DNA of 64,000 nt from Pseudoflavitalea sp. G-6-1-2. Its GTDB lineage: Bacteria > Bacteroidota > Bacteroidia > Chitinophagales > Chitinophagaceae. Shown piece after piece: positions 49,575 to 60,231 of the stretch. Numbering within the stretch: the stretch's first letter is position 1; every line of letters starts with the position of its first letter. The stretch lies in assembly GCF_012927185.1 (NCBI RefSeq), contig NZ_JABBGB010000001.1, positions 1,240,001-1,304,000 of the forward strand, given 5' to 3'. A program made the translations under genes and the position numbers. Below the pieces are notes generated by a model, which was not told where the DNA came from, searched no databases, and worked only from the letters and a program-made list of their open reading frames with translations.

Positions 49575-49620
49575 TTTAATTCACTTTTAATACGATATTT
49601 ACAGCGTCAGCGCTCCTTTG
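49575..49620 (+). promoter_or_regulatory. TTTAAT direct repeats at 11-bp steps before the response regulator gene
   Basis: TTTAAT occurs at 49575-49580 and 49586-49591, and ATTTAC at 49597-49602, each start 11 bp from the last. A TTTG at 49617-49620 lies where the -7 element would fall, 16 bp from the last repeat start to the element start as in the two arrays downstream. This suggests autoregulation by the OmpR-type regulator encoded at 49660. Confidence 0.6.
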
Positions 49621-49659
49621 GCTGTTTATTTCTGAATTTTGCCGGCATAAGTCATAACT

Positions 49660-50355
49660 ATGAATATGGATGAAGTCAAAATCTTGCTCGTAGAAGACGA
49701 AAAGAAAATCGCAGAAGCCCTCCGCAAGGGGCTGATGGAGCAGCAATACCATGTGGAAGTTGCCTACGACGGACTGATCGGAAAGAAAATGGTCGAAACA
49801 TACAAGTTCGATCTGGTGATCCTCGACATTAACCTTCCCGGCATGAACGGGTATGAGCTCTGCAAAGAGATCCGCAAACGCGATGAGCGGATCCCAGTTG
49901 TGATGCTTACCGCCCTCAGCGCCACCGATGATAAGATCGAAGGTTTCGATGCAGGAGCAGACGACTACATTGTAAAACCTTTCGATTTCAAAGAGTTGCT
50001 GGTGCGCATCCGCGCCCTCCTCAAAAGGATCTACCAGAATGTGCCCACCGGCAATATGCTCAAAGTAGCAGACCTGGTTATGAACCTCGACAGCAAGGAG
50101 GTGACCCGCGCAGATAAACCCATTTCGCTCACGGCAAAAGAATTTCAGTTGCTGGAGTATCTGGTGCGCAATAAGAACCGTGTGGTTTCACGGGCGGATA
50201 TTGCCCTCAATGTGTGGGATATCGATTTCGATACCAAAACCAATGTGATCGACGTATACGTAAACTTCCTGCGAAAAAAACTCGACAGGGATTACGATGC
50301 GAAGCTGATCCACACACAGGTGGGCATGGGTTACATACTCAAAGAAAACCCCTGA
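49660..50355 (+). CDS. OmpR/PhoB-family response regulator
   Basis: A 231-residue regulator. The receiver domain has the acidic pair in LLVEDEKK, the phosphorylation Asp in LVILDINLPG, and the Thr and Lys of MLTALSA and YIVKPFDFKE. The C-terminal winged helix is of the OmpR type (SLTAKEFQLLEYLVRNKNRVVSRADI, then VDVYVNFLRKKLD and GMGYIL). Such proteins bind direct repeats as tandem dimers with 11-bp spacing, which is exactly the arrangement in front of this gene and its neighbours. The partner kinase begins 6 bp after the stop. Confidence 0.96.
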   Translation: MNMDEVKILLVEDEKKIAEALRKGLMEQQYHVEVAYDGLIGKKMVETYKFDLVILDINLPGMNGYELCKEIRKRDERIPVVMLTALSATDDKIEGFDAGADDYIVKPFDFKELLVRIRALLKRIYQNVPTGNMLKVADLVMNLDSKEVTRADKPISLTAKEFQLLEYLVRNKNRVVSRADIALNVWDIDFDTKTNVIDVYVNFLRKKLDRDYDAKLIHTQVGMGYILKENP

Positions 50356-50361
50356 TTCTGA

Positions 50362-51750
50362 TTGAAGATCAAGTATAAAATAACCGCACTCTTTGCATTG
50401 CTGGCCACTGCCATCATGTTGCTCAGCAGTGTGAGCGTGTATTATTTTACTTCGCGCGATCGCGCCGAAGCCTTCACCAAAAGGCTGAAAGGCCGCGCCA
50501 ACAATAACGCGCAGATCTACTCCATCTTTGGCGACAGCAGCCTCAAACTGCTTACCACCATCGACTCGGGTTCTGTAAATACGCTTCCGCGCAAGAGCGT
50601 AGTGATCTACGATTACCTCGATCATCCGCTCTACGAGTTCAATGCTCCGGGAGAATCCACGCCCTTTGTTGACAGCAGTATTCTCGAACGCTCGCGCGTA
50701 GAAGAAGAGATCTACTTCAAAGTGGATGGCAGGGAAGCGATCGCCTTTCACCATACCGACAGCAAGAACCGCATTGTGATTGTAGTGGCAGGATATGATG
50801 CTGATGGATGGGCAAGGCTGATACAACTTCGGCATATCCTCTTTCTCGGCCTGCTCATCGGAATTGCCATTGCACTTATCGGCGGATATGTTTTCTCTAC
50901 CCAACTGGTGAAGCCGCTCTCGATGATCATTCAGGAAGTGAAGGATATCTCCTCGCAAAATCTTTCGCATCGCCTCGAAGCAGGCAGCGGGCACGATGAA
51001 CTGCATCAGCTGGCCAACACCTTCAACGATCTGCTCAACCGCCTGCAGGAATCTTTCAATATTCAGCGAAGGTTTATATCCAATGCCTCGCATGAGTTGA
51101 GTACACCACTCACTTCCATTTCCAGTCAGTTAGAAGTTACGCTGCATAAAGACAGAGACATCGAAGAATACAAACAGGTGATGCTGAGCATCCGTGAAGA
51201 TGTGAAGCAGATGCAGCAGCTCACCAAAAGCCTGCTCGAAATTGCCAAAACTGGCTCCCAGGGCACCATCGAGCTGGTTGAAGTGCGCATCGATGAAGTG
51301 ATGTTCAAGGTAATGGGAGATGTGCAGAAGATCAGTCCGGCTTACAAAGTGGAACTGCACTTCGAAGATATCCCCGACGACGACCGCGAATTTCTCGTTT
51401 TCGGAAACAGCGATCTGCTCTACAGCGCTATCAAAAACTTTGTAGAGAACGGCTGCAAATATTCTCCCGATCATATCAGTTGGGTGGACCTCAGTTTTCA
51501 GAACAGTCAGATCATCATCAGAGTAAAAAACCAGGGTGATGTAATTGCTGAAGAAGAGATTGAGAACATCTTTCAGCCATTTTACCGAACCAATACTGCA
51601 GCTACAAGAACCAAGGGTTTCGGGCTCGGATTGGCGCTCGCCAAAAGGATCATCGGGCTGCATAAAGGCTCTATCAATGTGCAGTCGGATATCGTTTCAG
51701 GAACCGTTTTTACCATCATTTTACCGTCCATCAAGGCATTCTCACGCTGA
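50362..51750 (+). CDS. Membrane sensor histidine kinase, partner of the response regulator
   Basis: A 462-residue kinase starting at TTG 50362, the only start that keeps the first membrane segment (residues about 8-27). A periplasmic sensor of about 130 residues, a second membrane segment, a HAMP linker (FSTQLVKPLSMIIQEVKDIS), and the kinase core follow: NASHELSTPLTSISSQLE, NFVENGCKYS, FQPFYRT and GFGLGLALAKRIIGLH. It phosphorylates the regulator encoded 6 bp upstream. The signal is unknown; probable targets include a universal stress protein, so general envelope or energy stress is possible. Confidence 0.95.
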   Translation: MKIKYKITALFALLATAIMLLSSVSVYYFTSRDRAEAFTKRLKGRANNNAQIYSIFGDSSLKLLTTIDSGSVNTLPRKSVVIYDYLDHPLYEFNAPGESTPFVDSSILERSRVEEEIYFKVDGREAIAFHHTDSKNRIVIVVAGYDADGWARLIQLRHILFLGLLIGIAIALIGGYVFSTQLVKPLSMIIQEVKDISSQNLSHRLEAGSGHDELHQLANTFNDLLNRLQESFNIQRRFISNASHELSTPLTSISSQLEVTLHKDRDIEEYKQVMLSIREDVKQMQQLTKSLLEIAKTGSQGTIELVEVRIDEVMFKVMGDVQKISPAYKVELHFEDIPDDDREFLVFGNSDLLYSAIKNFVENGCKYSPDHISWVDLSFQNSQIIIRVKNQGDVIAEEEIENIFQPFYRTNTAATRTKGFGLGLALAKRIIGLHKGSINVQSDIVSGTVFTIILPSIKAFSR

Positions 51751-51807
51751 TTTAATTTGTTTTTAATCTTTCTTTAATCCCCGTTTAAGAGGATTGGATC
51801 AAATTTG
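51751..51807 (+). promoter_or_regulatory. Four TTTAA(T/G) repeats at exact 11-bp steps plus a -7-like element
   Basis: TTTAAT starts at 51751, 51762 and 51773, and TTTAAG at 51784. CAAATTTG at 51800-51807 (one mismatch to TAnnTTTG) begins 16 bp after the last repeat start. The array begins just after the kinase stop codon and lies 36 bp before the small membrane protein gene. This is the expected form of an OmpR-family activator site. Confidence 0.75.
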
Positions 51808-51824
51808 GCGACTTATAAAATGGT

Positions 51825-52037
51825 ATGAACTACCGGTTGCTTTTTCAATGGATCCCTCTTACCTGCATTATCATCTTGTTGGTTGCAGGTGCATTTCTGA
51901 AACAAAAGAATGTAAGTCTGGACAGACAGAACAAGAAGCTTGTATTGCAGAACGACTCTATTCTTTCCGTGAATATCGAGTTGCTGAAACAAATGACAAG
52001 ACTGAAAGAATCGCTCGACAGTCTGCGTCCTCAATAG
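51825..52037 (+). CDS. Small single-pass membrane protein with a coiled coil
   Basis: A 70-residue protein from ATG 51825. Residues about 8-25 (WIPLTCIIILLVAGAFL) form one membrane helix, followed by a heptad-rich, charged periplasmic or cytoplasmic tail (LDRQNKKLVLQNDSILSVNIELLKQM) that should form a coiled coil, as in FtsL/DivIC-like proteins. The gene lies downstream of the TTTAAT array and of the kinase, so it is probably a regulated member of the same regulon. Its short length is the main reason for doubt. Confidence 0.55.
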   Translation: MNYRLLFQWIPLTCIIILLVAGAFLKQKNVSLDRQNKKLVLQNDSILSVNIELLKQMTRLKESLDSLRPQ

Positions 52038-52061
52038 GTTGAAACCCTTATTCCCTATCAG

Positions 52062-52118
52062 TTTAATGGCCTTTTAATTCACGATTAATCACGGTTTAAT
52101 TGCTTAGTTATAGCTTTA
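52062..52118 (+). promoter_or_regulatory. Four TTTAAT-type repeats at exact 11-bp steps plus a -7-like element before the Usp gene
   Basis: TTTAAT starts at 52062, 52073 and 52095, and ATTAAT at 52084, so all four are in 11-bp register. TAGCTTTA at 52111-52118 (one mismatch to TAnnTTTG) starts 16 bp after the last repeat start, the same spacing as in the preceding array. Confidence 0.78.
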
Positions 52119-52141
52119 TTTAAAGTGGAAGCACTGGATGC

Positions 52142-52987
52142 ATGAAGAAGCTATTTAATAATATTCTGGTGCCTGTTGAATTCAGTAAACAGACAAGCCA
52201 GGTGGTTGGTAAGGCGGTGATGATAGCAAATCATTTCAGGTGCGATGTGCATCTGTTGTTTGTGGAGAATCACGCTATGGCTTCGGCTGATAAACACCTT
52301 GTTCAGGCATTTACGGAAGGCGAACTCGCCGACTACGAAGTAAAGATGCAGGAACTCAGAAACGAATATCTGCCGATGCTTGAAGATGGCTTACAGCTAC
52401 TAACGGCTATGCGTAAGGGAAGTAAGGAACTGCATGTTACTTCTTACGCTAATCAAAATCAGATCGATCTTATCATCGTGGAAAAACCGTACAGTATCCT
52501 GCCCATGCGGTTTGCCCGTTCTTTCAATATCAATCGCATTTCCAAAAAAACAGGTTGCCCGGTTCTTACCGTAAAAGGAACTGCCAAATTAGAAGCGATC
52601 CGCAATATCGTATTGCCGGTTGATGCACACCTGCCTTTGAGGAAAGTGATGTTCGCCAGTTATCTCGCCAAACATTTCAATGCAAAGATTCACCTGATCG
52701 CTCTTGCCGGTCCTGGTGAGGCGGAAGATGTTGAAAGCAAAGTTTATCTCTACAAAACCTATCAGCTATTGCGGGAGAATACCAATCTCTCCATCGAATG
52801 TCATACCGTACCGGGAGGCAATATTGCAGATACAACATTGGAATATGCGCGTCAGATCGATGCAGATCTGATTGTAGTGAATCCGGGTAAAGAAATGCTG
52901 CTTTCCGGATTTGTGAACAGGCTCTTTGCGCGATTGCTGTTCAATGAATCGCGTATTCCTGTAATGACGGTAGCACCTGCCCGCTAA
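52142..52987 (+). CDS. Tandem-domain universal stress protein
   Basis: A 281-residue protein with two Usp domains. The first begins NNILVPVEFSKQTSQVVGKAVMIA (about residues 5-145); the second begins NIVLPVDAHLPLRKVMFASYLAKHF (about 155-280), with the partner strand LIVVNPGKEMLLSGFVNRL. In the second domain the residues expected for an ATP-binding GxxG motif read NPGKEMLLSG, which is plausible but not canonical. Usp proteins accumulate under starvation or respiratory stress. It is the probable target of the two-component system upstream. Confidence 0.9.
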   Translation: MKKLFNNILVPVEFSKQTSQVVGKAVMIANHFRCDVHLLFVENHAMASADKHLVQAFTEGELADYEVKMQELRNEYLPMLEDGLQLLTAMRKGSKELHVTSYANQNQIDLIIVEKPYSILPMRFARSFNINRISKKTGCPVLTVKGTAKLEAIRNIVLPVDAHLPLRKVMFASYLAKHFNAKIHLIALAGPGEAEDVESKVYLYKTYQLLRENTNLSIECHTVPGGNIADTTLEYARQIDADLIVVNPGKEMLLSGFVNRLFARLLFNESRIPVMTVAPAR

Positions 52988-53028
52988 CTTCTTTTCGATT
53001 TCTTTTTTTGTGGTGATCTGTACCCGAT

Positions 53029-53056
53029 TTTAATCAGAGATTTACATTTAATTAAT
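53029..53056 (+). promoter_or_regulatory. Degenerate TTTAAT array before the glycogen-binding-like gene
   Basis: TTTAAT (53029), ATTTAC (53040) and ATTAAT (53051) are in 11-bp register; the last two are the variants found in other arrays of this region. The -7 candidate (TAACTTTT, 53079-53086) does not keep the 16-bp spacing, so this site is weaker. Confidence 0.4.
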
Positions 53057-53198: not shown

Positions 53199-53495
53199 AT
53201 GAAAATGCATGAATATCCTTACGTGAACAAGCGGAAGAAAACGATCCGCTTTATGATCCACCACAGTTGTGCAGATCATATTGCACTCTCCGGTTCTTTC
53301 AATCACTGGGCGCCGGATGAATTGCTGCTGATTCATGATAAACAGGATGAGTGGATCATCGAAATTCCGATGCTGCCGCATGGCAAGTATCATTACAAAT
53401 TTTACATCGACGACAGAATGTGGATGGAAGACGTGGAGAACAGGCATCGCGAACCAGACGGGGTTTCCGGCTGGAACAGCGTGTTGATTGTATAG
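53199..53495 (+). CDS. Glycogen-binding-like (CBM48/AMPK-beta-type) domain protein
   Basis: A 98-residue protein from ATG 53199, chosen because the longer frame from 53136 adds a hydrophobic, cysteine-rich extension unlike the family. HIALSGSFNHWAPDELLLI and WIIEIPMLPHGKYHYKFYIDD, followed by ENRHREPDGVSGWNSVLIV, are the classic E-set/CBM48 motif with the tryptophans and Lys that hold alpha-glucans. It is soluble and has no catalytic domain. It may tether a partner to glycogen; a weak TTTAAT array lies upstream. Confidence 0.85.
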   Translation: MKMHEYPYVNKRKKTIRFMIHHSCADHIALSGSFNHWAPDELLLIHDKQDEWIIEIPMLPHGKYHYKFYIDDRMWMEDVENRHREPDGVSGWNSVLIV

Positions 53496-60141: not shown

Positions 60142-60231
60142 GGTGTTTGAAGGTGATAACGGCTGGGACCGGGGTTGGGTCTACGAATAATGGCAATTGA
60201 TTAACAAGCTTTTAATGCTGGTCTAATCAAC

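Follow-up and report, generated by a model that had tools for sequence, protein, structure and literature searches.

Genes and repeat arrays of the locus

The window analysed here is a stretch of 64,000 nucleotides from the genome of Pseudoflavitalea sp. G-6-1-2, a soil-type member of the Chitinophagaceae in the phylum Bacteroidota (contig NZ_JABBGB010000001.1, positions 1,240,001 to 1,304,000). It contains a two-component system, consisting of an OmpR/PhoB-family response regulator and a sensor histidine kinase, and two arrays of TTTAAT-type direct repeats that lie upstream of genes for a small membrane protein and a universal stress protein. The following features were assigned, numbered from the first base of the window (bp, base pairs).

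49575..49591, + strand: two TTTAAT half-sites (49575, 49586) upstream of the regulator gene, a likely autoregulatory site
49634..49641, + strand: likely -7 element for the regulator gene, GAATTTTG, proposed from its conserved position
49660..50355, + strand: OmpR/PhoB-family response regulator, 231 residues (Pfam Response_reg 5.9e-33, Trans_reg_C 8.6e-25)
50362..51750, + strand: sensor histidine kinase, 462 residues, TTG start, with one extracytoplasmic domain, HAMP, HisKA and HATPase_c
51751..51789, + strand: array 1, four half-sites in an 11-bp register (TTTAAT 51751, TTTAAT 51762, TTTAAT 51773, TTTAAG 51784)
51800..51807, + strand: -7-like element ahead of the small membrane protein gene, CAAATTTG, with 16 bp from the start of half-site four to its own start
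51825..52037, + strand: small membrane protein, 70 residues, with one predicted membrane segment and, by our reading, a coiled-coil-like tail
52062..52100, + strand: array 2, four half-sites in an 11-bp register (TTTAAT 52062, TTTAAT 52073, ATTAAT 52084, TTTAAT 52095)
52111..52118, + strand: -7-like element ahead of the universal stress protein gene, TAGCTTTA, with 16 bp from the start of half-site four to its own start
52142..52987, + strand: universal stress protein, 281 residues, with two matched Usp stretches (Pfam Usp 5.6e-15)

Both arrays had been described in a sequence-only reading of this DNA and are confirmed here by direct inspection, array 1 starting directly past the kinase stop codon. 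When three half-sites at the 11-bp period are required and as many as three mismatches tolerated, the window gives eight matches compared with 0.10 expected (standard deviation 0.30; maximum of 1 in 100 shuffles), an excess of about 80-fold. When at most two mismatches are allowed, the whole genome (6.1 megabases) gives eight matches, four of which fall within the two arrays, and the backwards pattern gives four. One of the eight window matches, at 60200, sits between two minus-strand genes without a -7 element and was taken as chance. The repeats are direct and spaced by one helical turn, which is the kind of site that OmpR/PhoB regulators are known to bind.

The gene lying among the arrays encodes a receiver domain followed by a winged-helix Trans_reg_C domain, in agreement with the OmpR family, to which the same reading had assigned it. 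Its recognition helix, TNVIDVYVNFLRKKL, begins at residue 194 and carries a phenylalanine at position 203. The HAMP, HisKA and HATPase_c domains of the kinase identify it as a HisKA sensor kinase. Its extracytoplasmic sensor part was modelled with a mean predicted local distance difference test score (pLDDT) of 92.5, and the model appears only weakly similar to Cache/PDC-type domains such as the WalK extracellular domain; a Foldseek search with it returned no match under E 1e-3, the WalK extracellular domain and Cache-like domains being among the best, and no ligand was inferred. The nearest named relative found is Pseudoflavitalea rhizosphaerae (L010), with a kinase that is 90% identical. The genome also holds a paralogous system (L070), with regulator and kinase 66 and 41% identical to those of the window, respectively.

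Conservation of the arrays

Both arrays are present in all six genomes of the genus (12/12 arrays), so that the loss in close relatives keeping the genes, which the sequence-only reading had named as contrary evidence, is not seen. Across the family, arrays recur next to the orthologues of the two-component genes, in many cases immediately following the kinase gene or divergent from the regulator gene. A sequence model built from 25 arrays (R1) and searched in 147 family genomes identified 33 places at E up to 1e-4, with 28 of these within 10 kilobases of a kinase relative (E up to 1e-80). Most of the 33 come from loci used in building the model or from close copies; by our count, 11 of the 16 matches independent of model building are near a kinase relative. 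The five other matches correspond to a trehalose-phosphate synthase gene, two glycosyltransferase-phosphatase fusion genes, a contig end with a truncated regulator and one unexplained place (in genome G094).

A second set of 100 related loci was picked by kinase similarity alone and its arrays were called by half-sites only. These kinase-chosen loci contain 61 arrays, compared with seven in the same DNA reversed. Short, AT-rich half-sites might arise by chance or reflect a nucleoid-protein site without specific meaning, and loose scans do yield control matches (33 versus 105 real ones). Such an origin is scarcely credible, however, given the stricter scan (61 versus 7), the conservation of register and spacing and the dependence of base 2 of the half-site on residue 203 of the regulator described below; the presence of the arrays in 6/6 genus genomes already contradicts it.

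Residue 203 and the second base of the half-site

The arrays of 122 regulator loci were scanned ignoring base 2 of the half-site (L164 and L171 were dropped since they have no usable regulator); any relation between this base and the regulator is therefore not built in. At the looser threshold, which gives arrays at 78 loci, regulators with Phe203 are accompanied only by T at base 2 (23/23) and those with Tyr203 by C in 53 of 55 cases. No other regulator column is as informative on base 2 as residue 203 (0.746 bits; the next reaches 0.362), which predicts the base at 76 of the 78 loci. Scoring by half-site pairs, which assigns a state to 97 of 120 loci, pairs Phe with T (TTTAAT) in 33/33 and Tyr with C (TCTAAT) in 62/64; L062 was scored as T here and in the array-based and kinase-chosen counts, its CCTGAG not being counted as a half-site. 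The kinase-chosen loci alone give 27/27 and 46/47 by pairs and 17/17 and 36/38 by arrays. In total, Phe loci contain 76 TT and no CC pairs and Tyr loci 75 CC and 10 TT pairs, while the reversed DNA contains two TT pairs at Phe loci and four CC and seven TT pairs at Tyr loci.

Trees were built without the helix columns, and regulator rows of 170 residues or fewer and L154, a near copy of L109, were removed; 120 rows were kept in the quick and pair-criterion trees. The exchange between Phe and Tyr occurs six times on the tree of 81 rows, six times on that of 120 rows and eight times on the quick tree. Well-supported branches yield three independent pairs, which agree with the relation in essentially every case and never run against it.

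The recognition helix NVIDVYVNFLRKK aligns with NVVESYVSYLRRK of Mycobacterium tuberculosis PhoP, with Tyr220 of the latter at the position of residue 203. In the PhoP-DNA crystal structure (PMC4832192, PDB 5ed4), Tyr220 hydrogen-bonds C5, which is base 2 of the TCACAGC half-site. A tyrosine hydroxyl favouring C and a phenylalanine favouring T would fit the data, and this stereochemical step may underlie the relation. The covariation is the best evidence that the adjacent regulator binds the arrays.

An alternative is that some other member of the OmpR family in the cell binds the arrays, their adjacency to this regulator being incidental. The family is large, many of its members bind direct repeats of 10-11 bp and the close paralogue L070 is present in the same genome. 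However, the identity of residue 203 in the adjacent regulator predicts base 2 at 95 of 97 loci, and the paralogue has Tyr203 and its own TCTAAC-TCTAAT-ATTAAT array before a tetratricopeptide repeat (TPR) gene. The pattern TCTAAY-N5-TCTAAT-N5-WTTAAY has a single exact match in the whole genome, at L070, and one further match with one mismatch. Binding by a different regulator is thus very unlikely.

Several observations weigh against recognition of the arrays by the adjacent regulator. At the looser threshold, 44 of the 122 regulator loci are without an array, and the reversed DNA yields 33 arrays (26 loci) compared with 105 (78/122 loci) in the real DNA; a few Phe-type neighbours (L151, L160) lack any half-site pair. 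Two Tyr loci go the opposite way in each of the two scorings, array-based and pair-based. Related regulators share descent, and the Phe/Tyr changes forced by well-supported branches number only three (81 rows), three (120 rows) and two (quick tree); because only three switches are well supported, the tree test alone is not significant (sign test, median p 0.25; 3/3 concordant). The protein that supplies the tyrosine comparison is distantly related and recognises another half-site, and the evidence as a whole is computational.

Promoter geometry

Both CAAATTTG and TAGCTTTA are one letter off the Bacteroidota primary-sigma -7 consensus TAnnTTTG. A sigma-70-type promoter scan was uninformative (seven found, 5.6 expected). 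Loci found with R1 are biased towards a 16-bp spacing because the model contains the -7 element, and the spacing was therefore recounted on the kinase-chosen loci. There the -7 element lies at exactly 16 bp in 29 of 61 arrays and in none of the seven arrays of the reversed-DNA control. Next to Phe-type regulators 16 of 20 arrays show this spacing, compared with 13 of 41 next to Tyr-type regulators. Among the Tyr-type arrays with other spacings, nine have the -7 element at 27-28 bp, one turn further, and one at 25 bp; one Phe-type array has it at 28 bp. With all loci pooled, the element is at 16 bp in 50 of 104 arrays and at 28 bp in eight. The 27-28-bp arrays fall mainly in a sister clade with the recognition helix TNFIDVYINYLRKK (L165-L170, L196, L222), which has four TCTAAT-type half-sites and the -7 element at 27-28 bp, not 16.

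None of the 53 arrays with a -7 element at 16 bp has TTTG at a -33-like spacing, and in 17 of 22 Phe-class arrays the T that should open the -7 element is replaced by C (L154 was again left out of both counts). A -33 motif is likewise reported not to have been found in Flavobacterium johnsoniae (PMC7366714). The geometry resembles that of activator-dependent promoters in which the array would replace the -33 element. Since the array covers the position of that element, it could instead act in repression, for example by covering the -33 region. A repressor would, however, need no fixed distance, and the constant 16-bp spacing, the C-starting -7 elements and the absence of a -33 element all have an activator-dependent look, making repression unlikely.

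For the site upstream of the regulator gene, the earlier claim of the same geometry did not hold. The two TTTAAT half-sites are as described and the pair is kept in 8/8 loci tested, while the third element, ATTTAC at 49597, is degenerate. The 16-bp spacing stands for the two strong arrays, but L009, L010 and the further relatives compared all lack the TTTG at 49617, 16 bp past the third site. The element kept instead is GA(A/T)TTTTG, located 48 bp past the second TTTAAT in the window and 47-49 bp past the second half-site in seven of the eight loci; the exception, L056, has TAGCTTTA at 38 bp. Autoregulation is plausible and weaker than regulation of the other targets because the site has only two half-sites and a -7 element other than that first proposed. 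By comparison, the genes for the small membrane protein and the stress protein are both well supported as targets.

Targets in relatives

A survey of downstream genes covered 114 loci with 81 arrays having a -7 element at 16 bp; the loci are partly R1-chosen, with some near copies, and one array has no open reading frame assigned to it. The largest clusters are the universal stress protein (26) and the small membrane protein (11 and that of the window, for which the automated assignment took a wrong frame), followed by a glycosyltransferase-haloacid dehalogenase (HAD) fusion (7), a TPR protein (6), and an MscS channel, an Fe-S repair protein (RIC-like), a secreted repeat protein and the regulator itself (3 each). 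OmpA, a hibernation factor, a resistance-nodulation-division (RND) adaptor and a single universal-stress-like protein account for two each, and the remaining targets are single, among them trehalose-phosphate synthase and DUF4142. With one member of each checked, family cut-offs are reached for MscS, trehalose synthase/phosphatase, S30AE hibernation, OmpA and DUF4142. The names RIC and glucosyl-3-phosphoglycerate synthase are approximate since the scores of the single members checked miss the cut-offs (108.7 compared with 204.7 bits and 176.5 compared with 262, respectively). The fusion gene carries an array both after the kinase (L011, L058; weaker in L062) and elsewhere (L006 in this genome and L089-L093 in the genus). 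The recurrent targets, which include a glucosylglycerate-type enzyme, the hibernation factor, a trehalose enzyme and MscS besides the two targets of the window, suggest, as judged from their gene names, a role in osmotic or general stress and growth arrest.

The closest NCBIfam family of the regulator is that of the heavy-metal regulators CusR/CopR/CzcR (TIGR01387), raising the question of whether this is a heavy-metal switch with the universal stress protein as a side target. The best NCBIfam matches are indeed cztR_silR_copR for the regulator and cztS_silS_copS for the kinase, and two arrays in distant relatives (L112, L175) precede an RND adaptor related to CusB. Both scores nevertheless fall under the curated cut-offs (236.3 bits versus 279.2 for the regulator and 175.1 versus 292.6 for the kinase), neither window array is accompanied by a metal gene, and it is stress genes that recur among the targets. 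A metal-responsive function is accordingly improbable.

Proposed mechanism and comparison with known regulators

Taken together, the conserved register and spacing, the adjacency of the regulator in many genera and the tracking of base 2 by residue 203 support the regulon proposed in the sequence-only reading, which is very probably correct. The regulator, once activated by the kinase, presumably through phosphorylation, would most likely bind the arrays and switch on the downstream stress genes. Each array could accommodate two dimers of it in tandem, lying next to each other along the same DNA face, with one DNA-binding domain per TTTAAT half-site and Phe203 of the recognition helix reading the T at base 2. 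The array would stand in for the -33 element, and its constant 16-bp distance to a weak -7 element may let the bound regulator touch RNA polymerase in a class-II-like activation and turn on the gene just downstream, which in the window encodes the small membrane protein (array 1) or the universal stress protein (array 2). Autoregulation of the regulator operon is probable and would act through its two-half-site element, which lies about three turns further upstream.

PmrA/BasR is likewise an OmpR/PhoB-family regulator that uses head-to-tail, near-identical half-sites, CTTAAT and CCTAAG (CTTAAT-N5-type), in Klebsiella; this report (PMC3973317) also discusses TTTAAT and places PmrA Asn196 where PhoB has Arg201. 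The PmrA box described there comprises two half-sites, whereas four are present here together with a Bacteroidota -7 element, and the regulator scores 163.9 against the PmrA/BasR model (NF007928; cut-off 330). M. tuberculosis PhoP similarly binds in tandem to direct repeats, with Tyr220 contacting base 2, but differs in its half-site (TCACAGC), 4-bp spacer, regulon, phylum and sigma factor (PMC4832192). Among Bacteroidota, RprY of Porphyromonas gingivalis is an OmpR-family regulator also tied to stress, and a universal stress protein gene changes in that study (PMC3646045); the paper does not contain the words motif, consensus or binding site. The scores against RprY (NF051850, 152.5) and Bacteroidota PhoB (NF053854, 179) are below the cut-offs of 370 and 270, respectively.

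Few regulon predictions are known for Bacteroidota two-component systems, and how the phylum activates its stress genes is poorly understood. This regulon, its promoter geometry and the residue-base relation were not seen in the literature searched, which excluded most subscription papers. Since the regulator, its proposed sites to the base, the geometry of the promoters and the residue proposed to read base 2 have all been specified, the whole chain is directly testable, and the Phe/Tyr-to-T/C relation offers a rule for predicting the sites of related regulators from sequence. Tentatively, the relation may represent a natural recognition code within a large set of paralogous Bacteroidota stress regulators, in which the aromatic residue at 203 sets base 2. 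Repeated switching of this residue would then separate sister systems that share a cell, as the window system and its paralogue do in this genome. The Phe and Tyr systems together might control a regulon for osmotic, desiccation or general stress and growth arrest (universal stress proteins, compatible-solute enzymes, MscS, ribosome hibernation and Fe-S repair), a candidate general stress switch of the Chitinophagaceae.

Additional observations

The small membrane protein has no Pfam or NCBIfam match. An alignment of eight sequences shows 47-73% identity and 18 invariant columns, and an LxLxNDSIxSVN motif is kept in its relatives; a function as a feedback partner of the kinase is speculation. 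Half-sites at 53029 and 53051 (53029-53056), upstream of a CBM48 gene, were rejected because their register is not kept before the orthologous gene in relatives. The small CBM48/AMPK1_CBM protein itself (53199-53495) is syntenic in relatives, several of which have a TAACTTTT-like -7 element without conserved half-sites.

Elsewhere in the genome, two half-sites occur beside an unrelated gene (L143, G000:C3:414164). A mixed array of TTTAAT, TCTAAT, TTTAAT and TTGAAC with a -7 element at 15 bp (L144:3811, G000:C2:1918310) lies upstream of genes that, by our reading, resemble an RND efflux system. The array before the glycosyltransferase-HAD fusion gene (L006/L145, G000:C3:11547, minus strand) has three half-sites and a degenerate fourth, with the -7 element CATATTAC at 16 bp, and is kept in the genus. 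In two species (L007, L097), TTTAAT repeats are kept before a SixA-like phosphatase gene, with TTTTG at a different distance.

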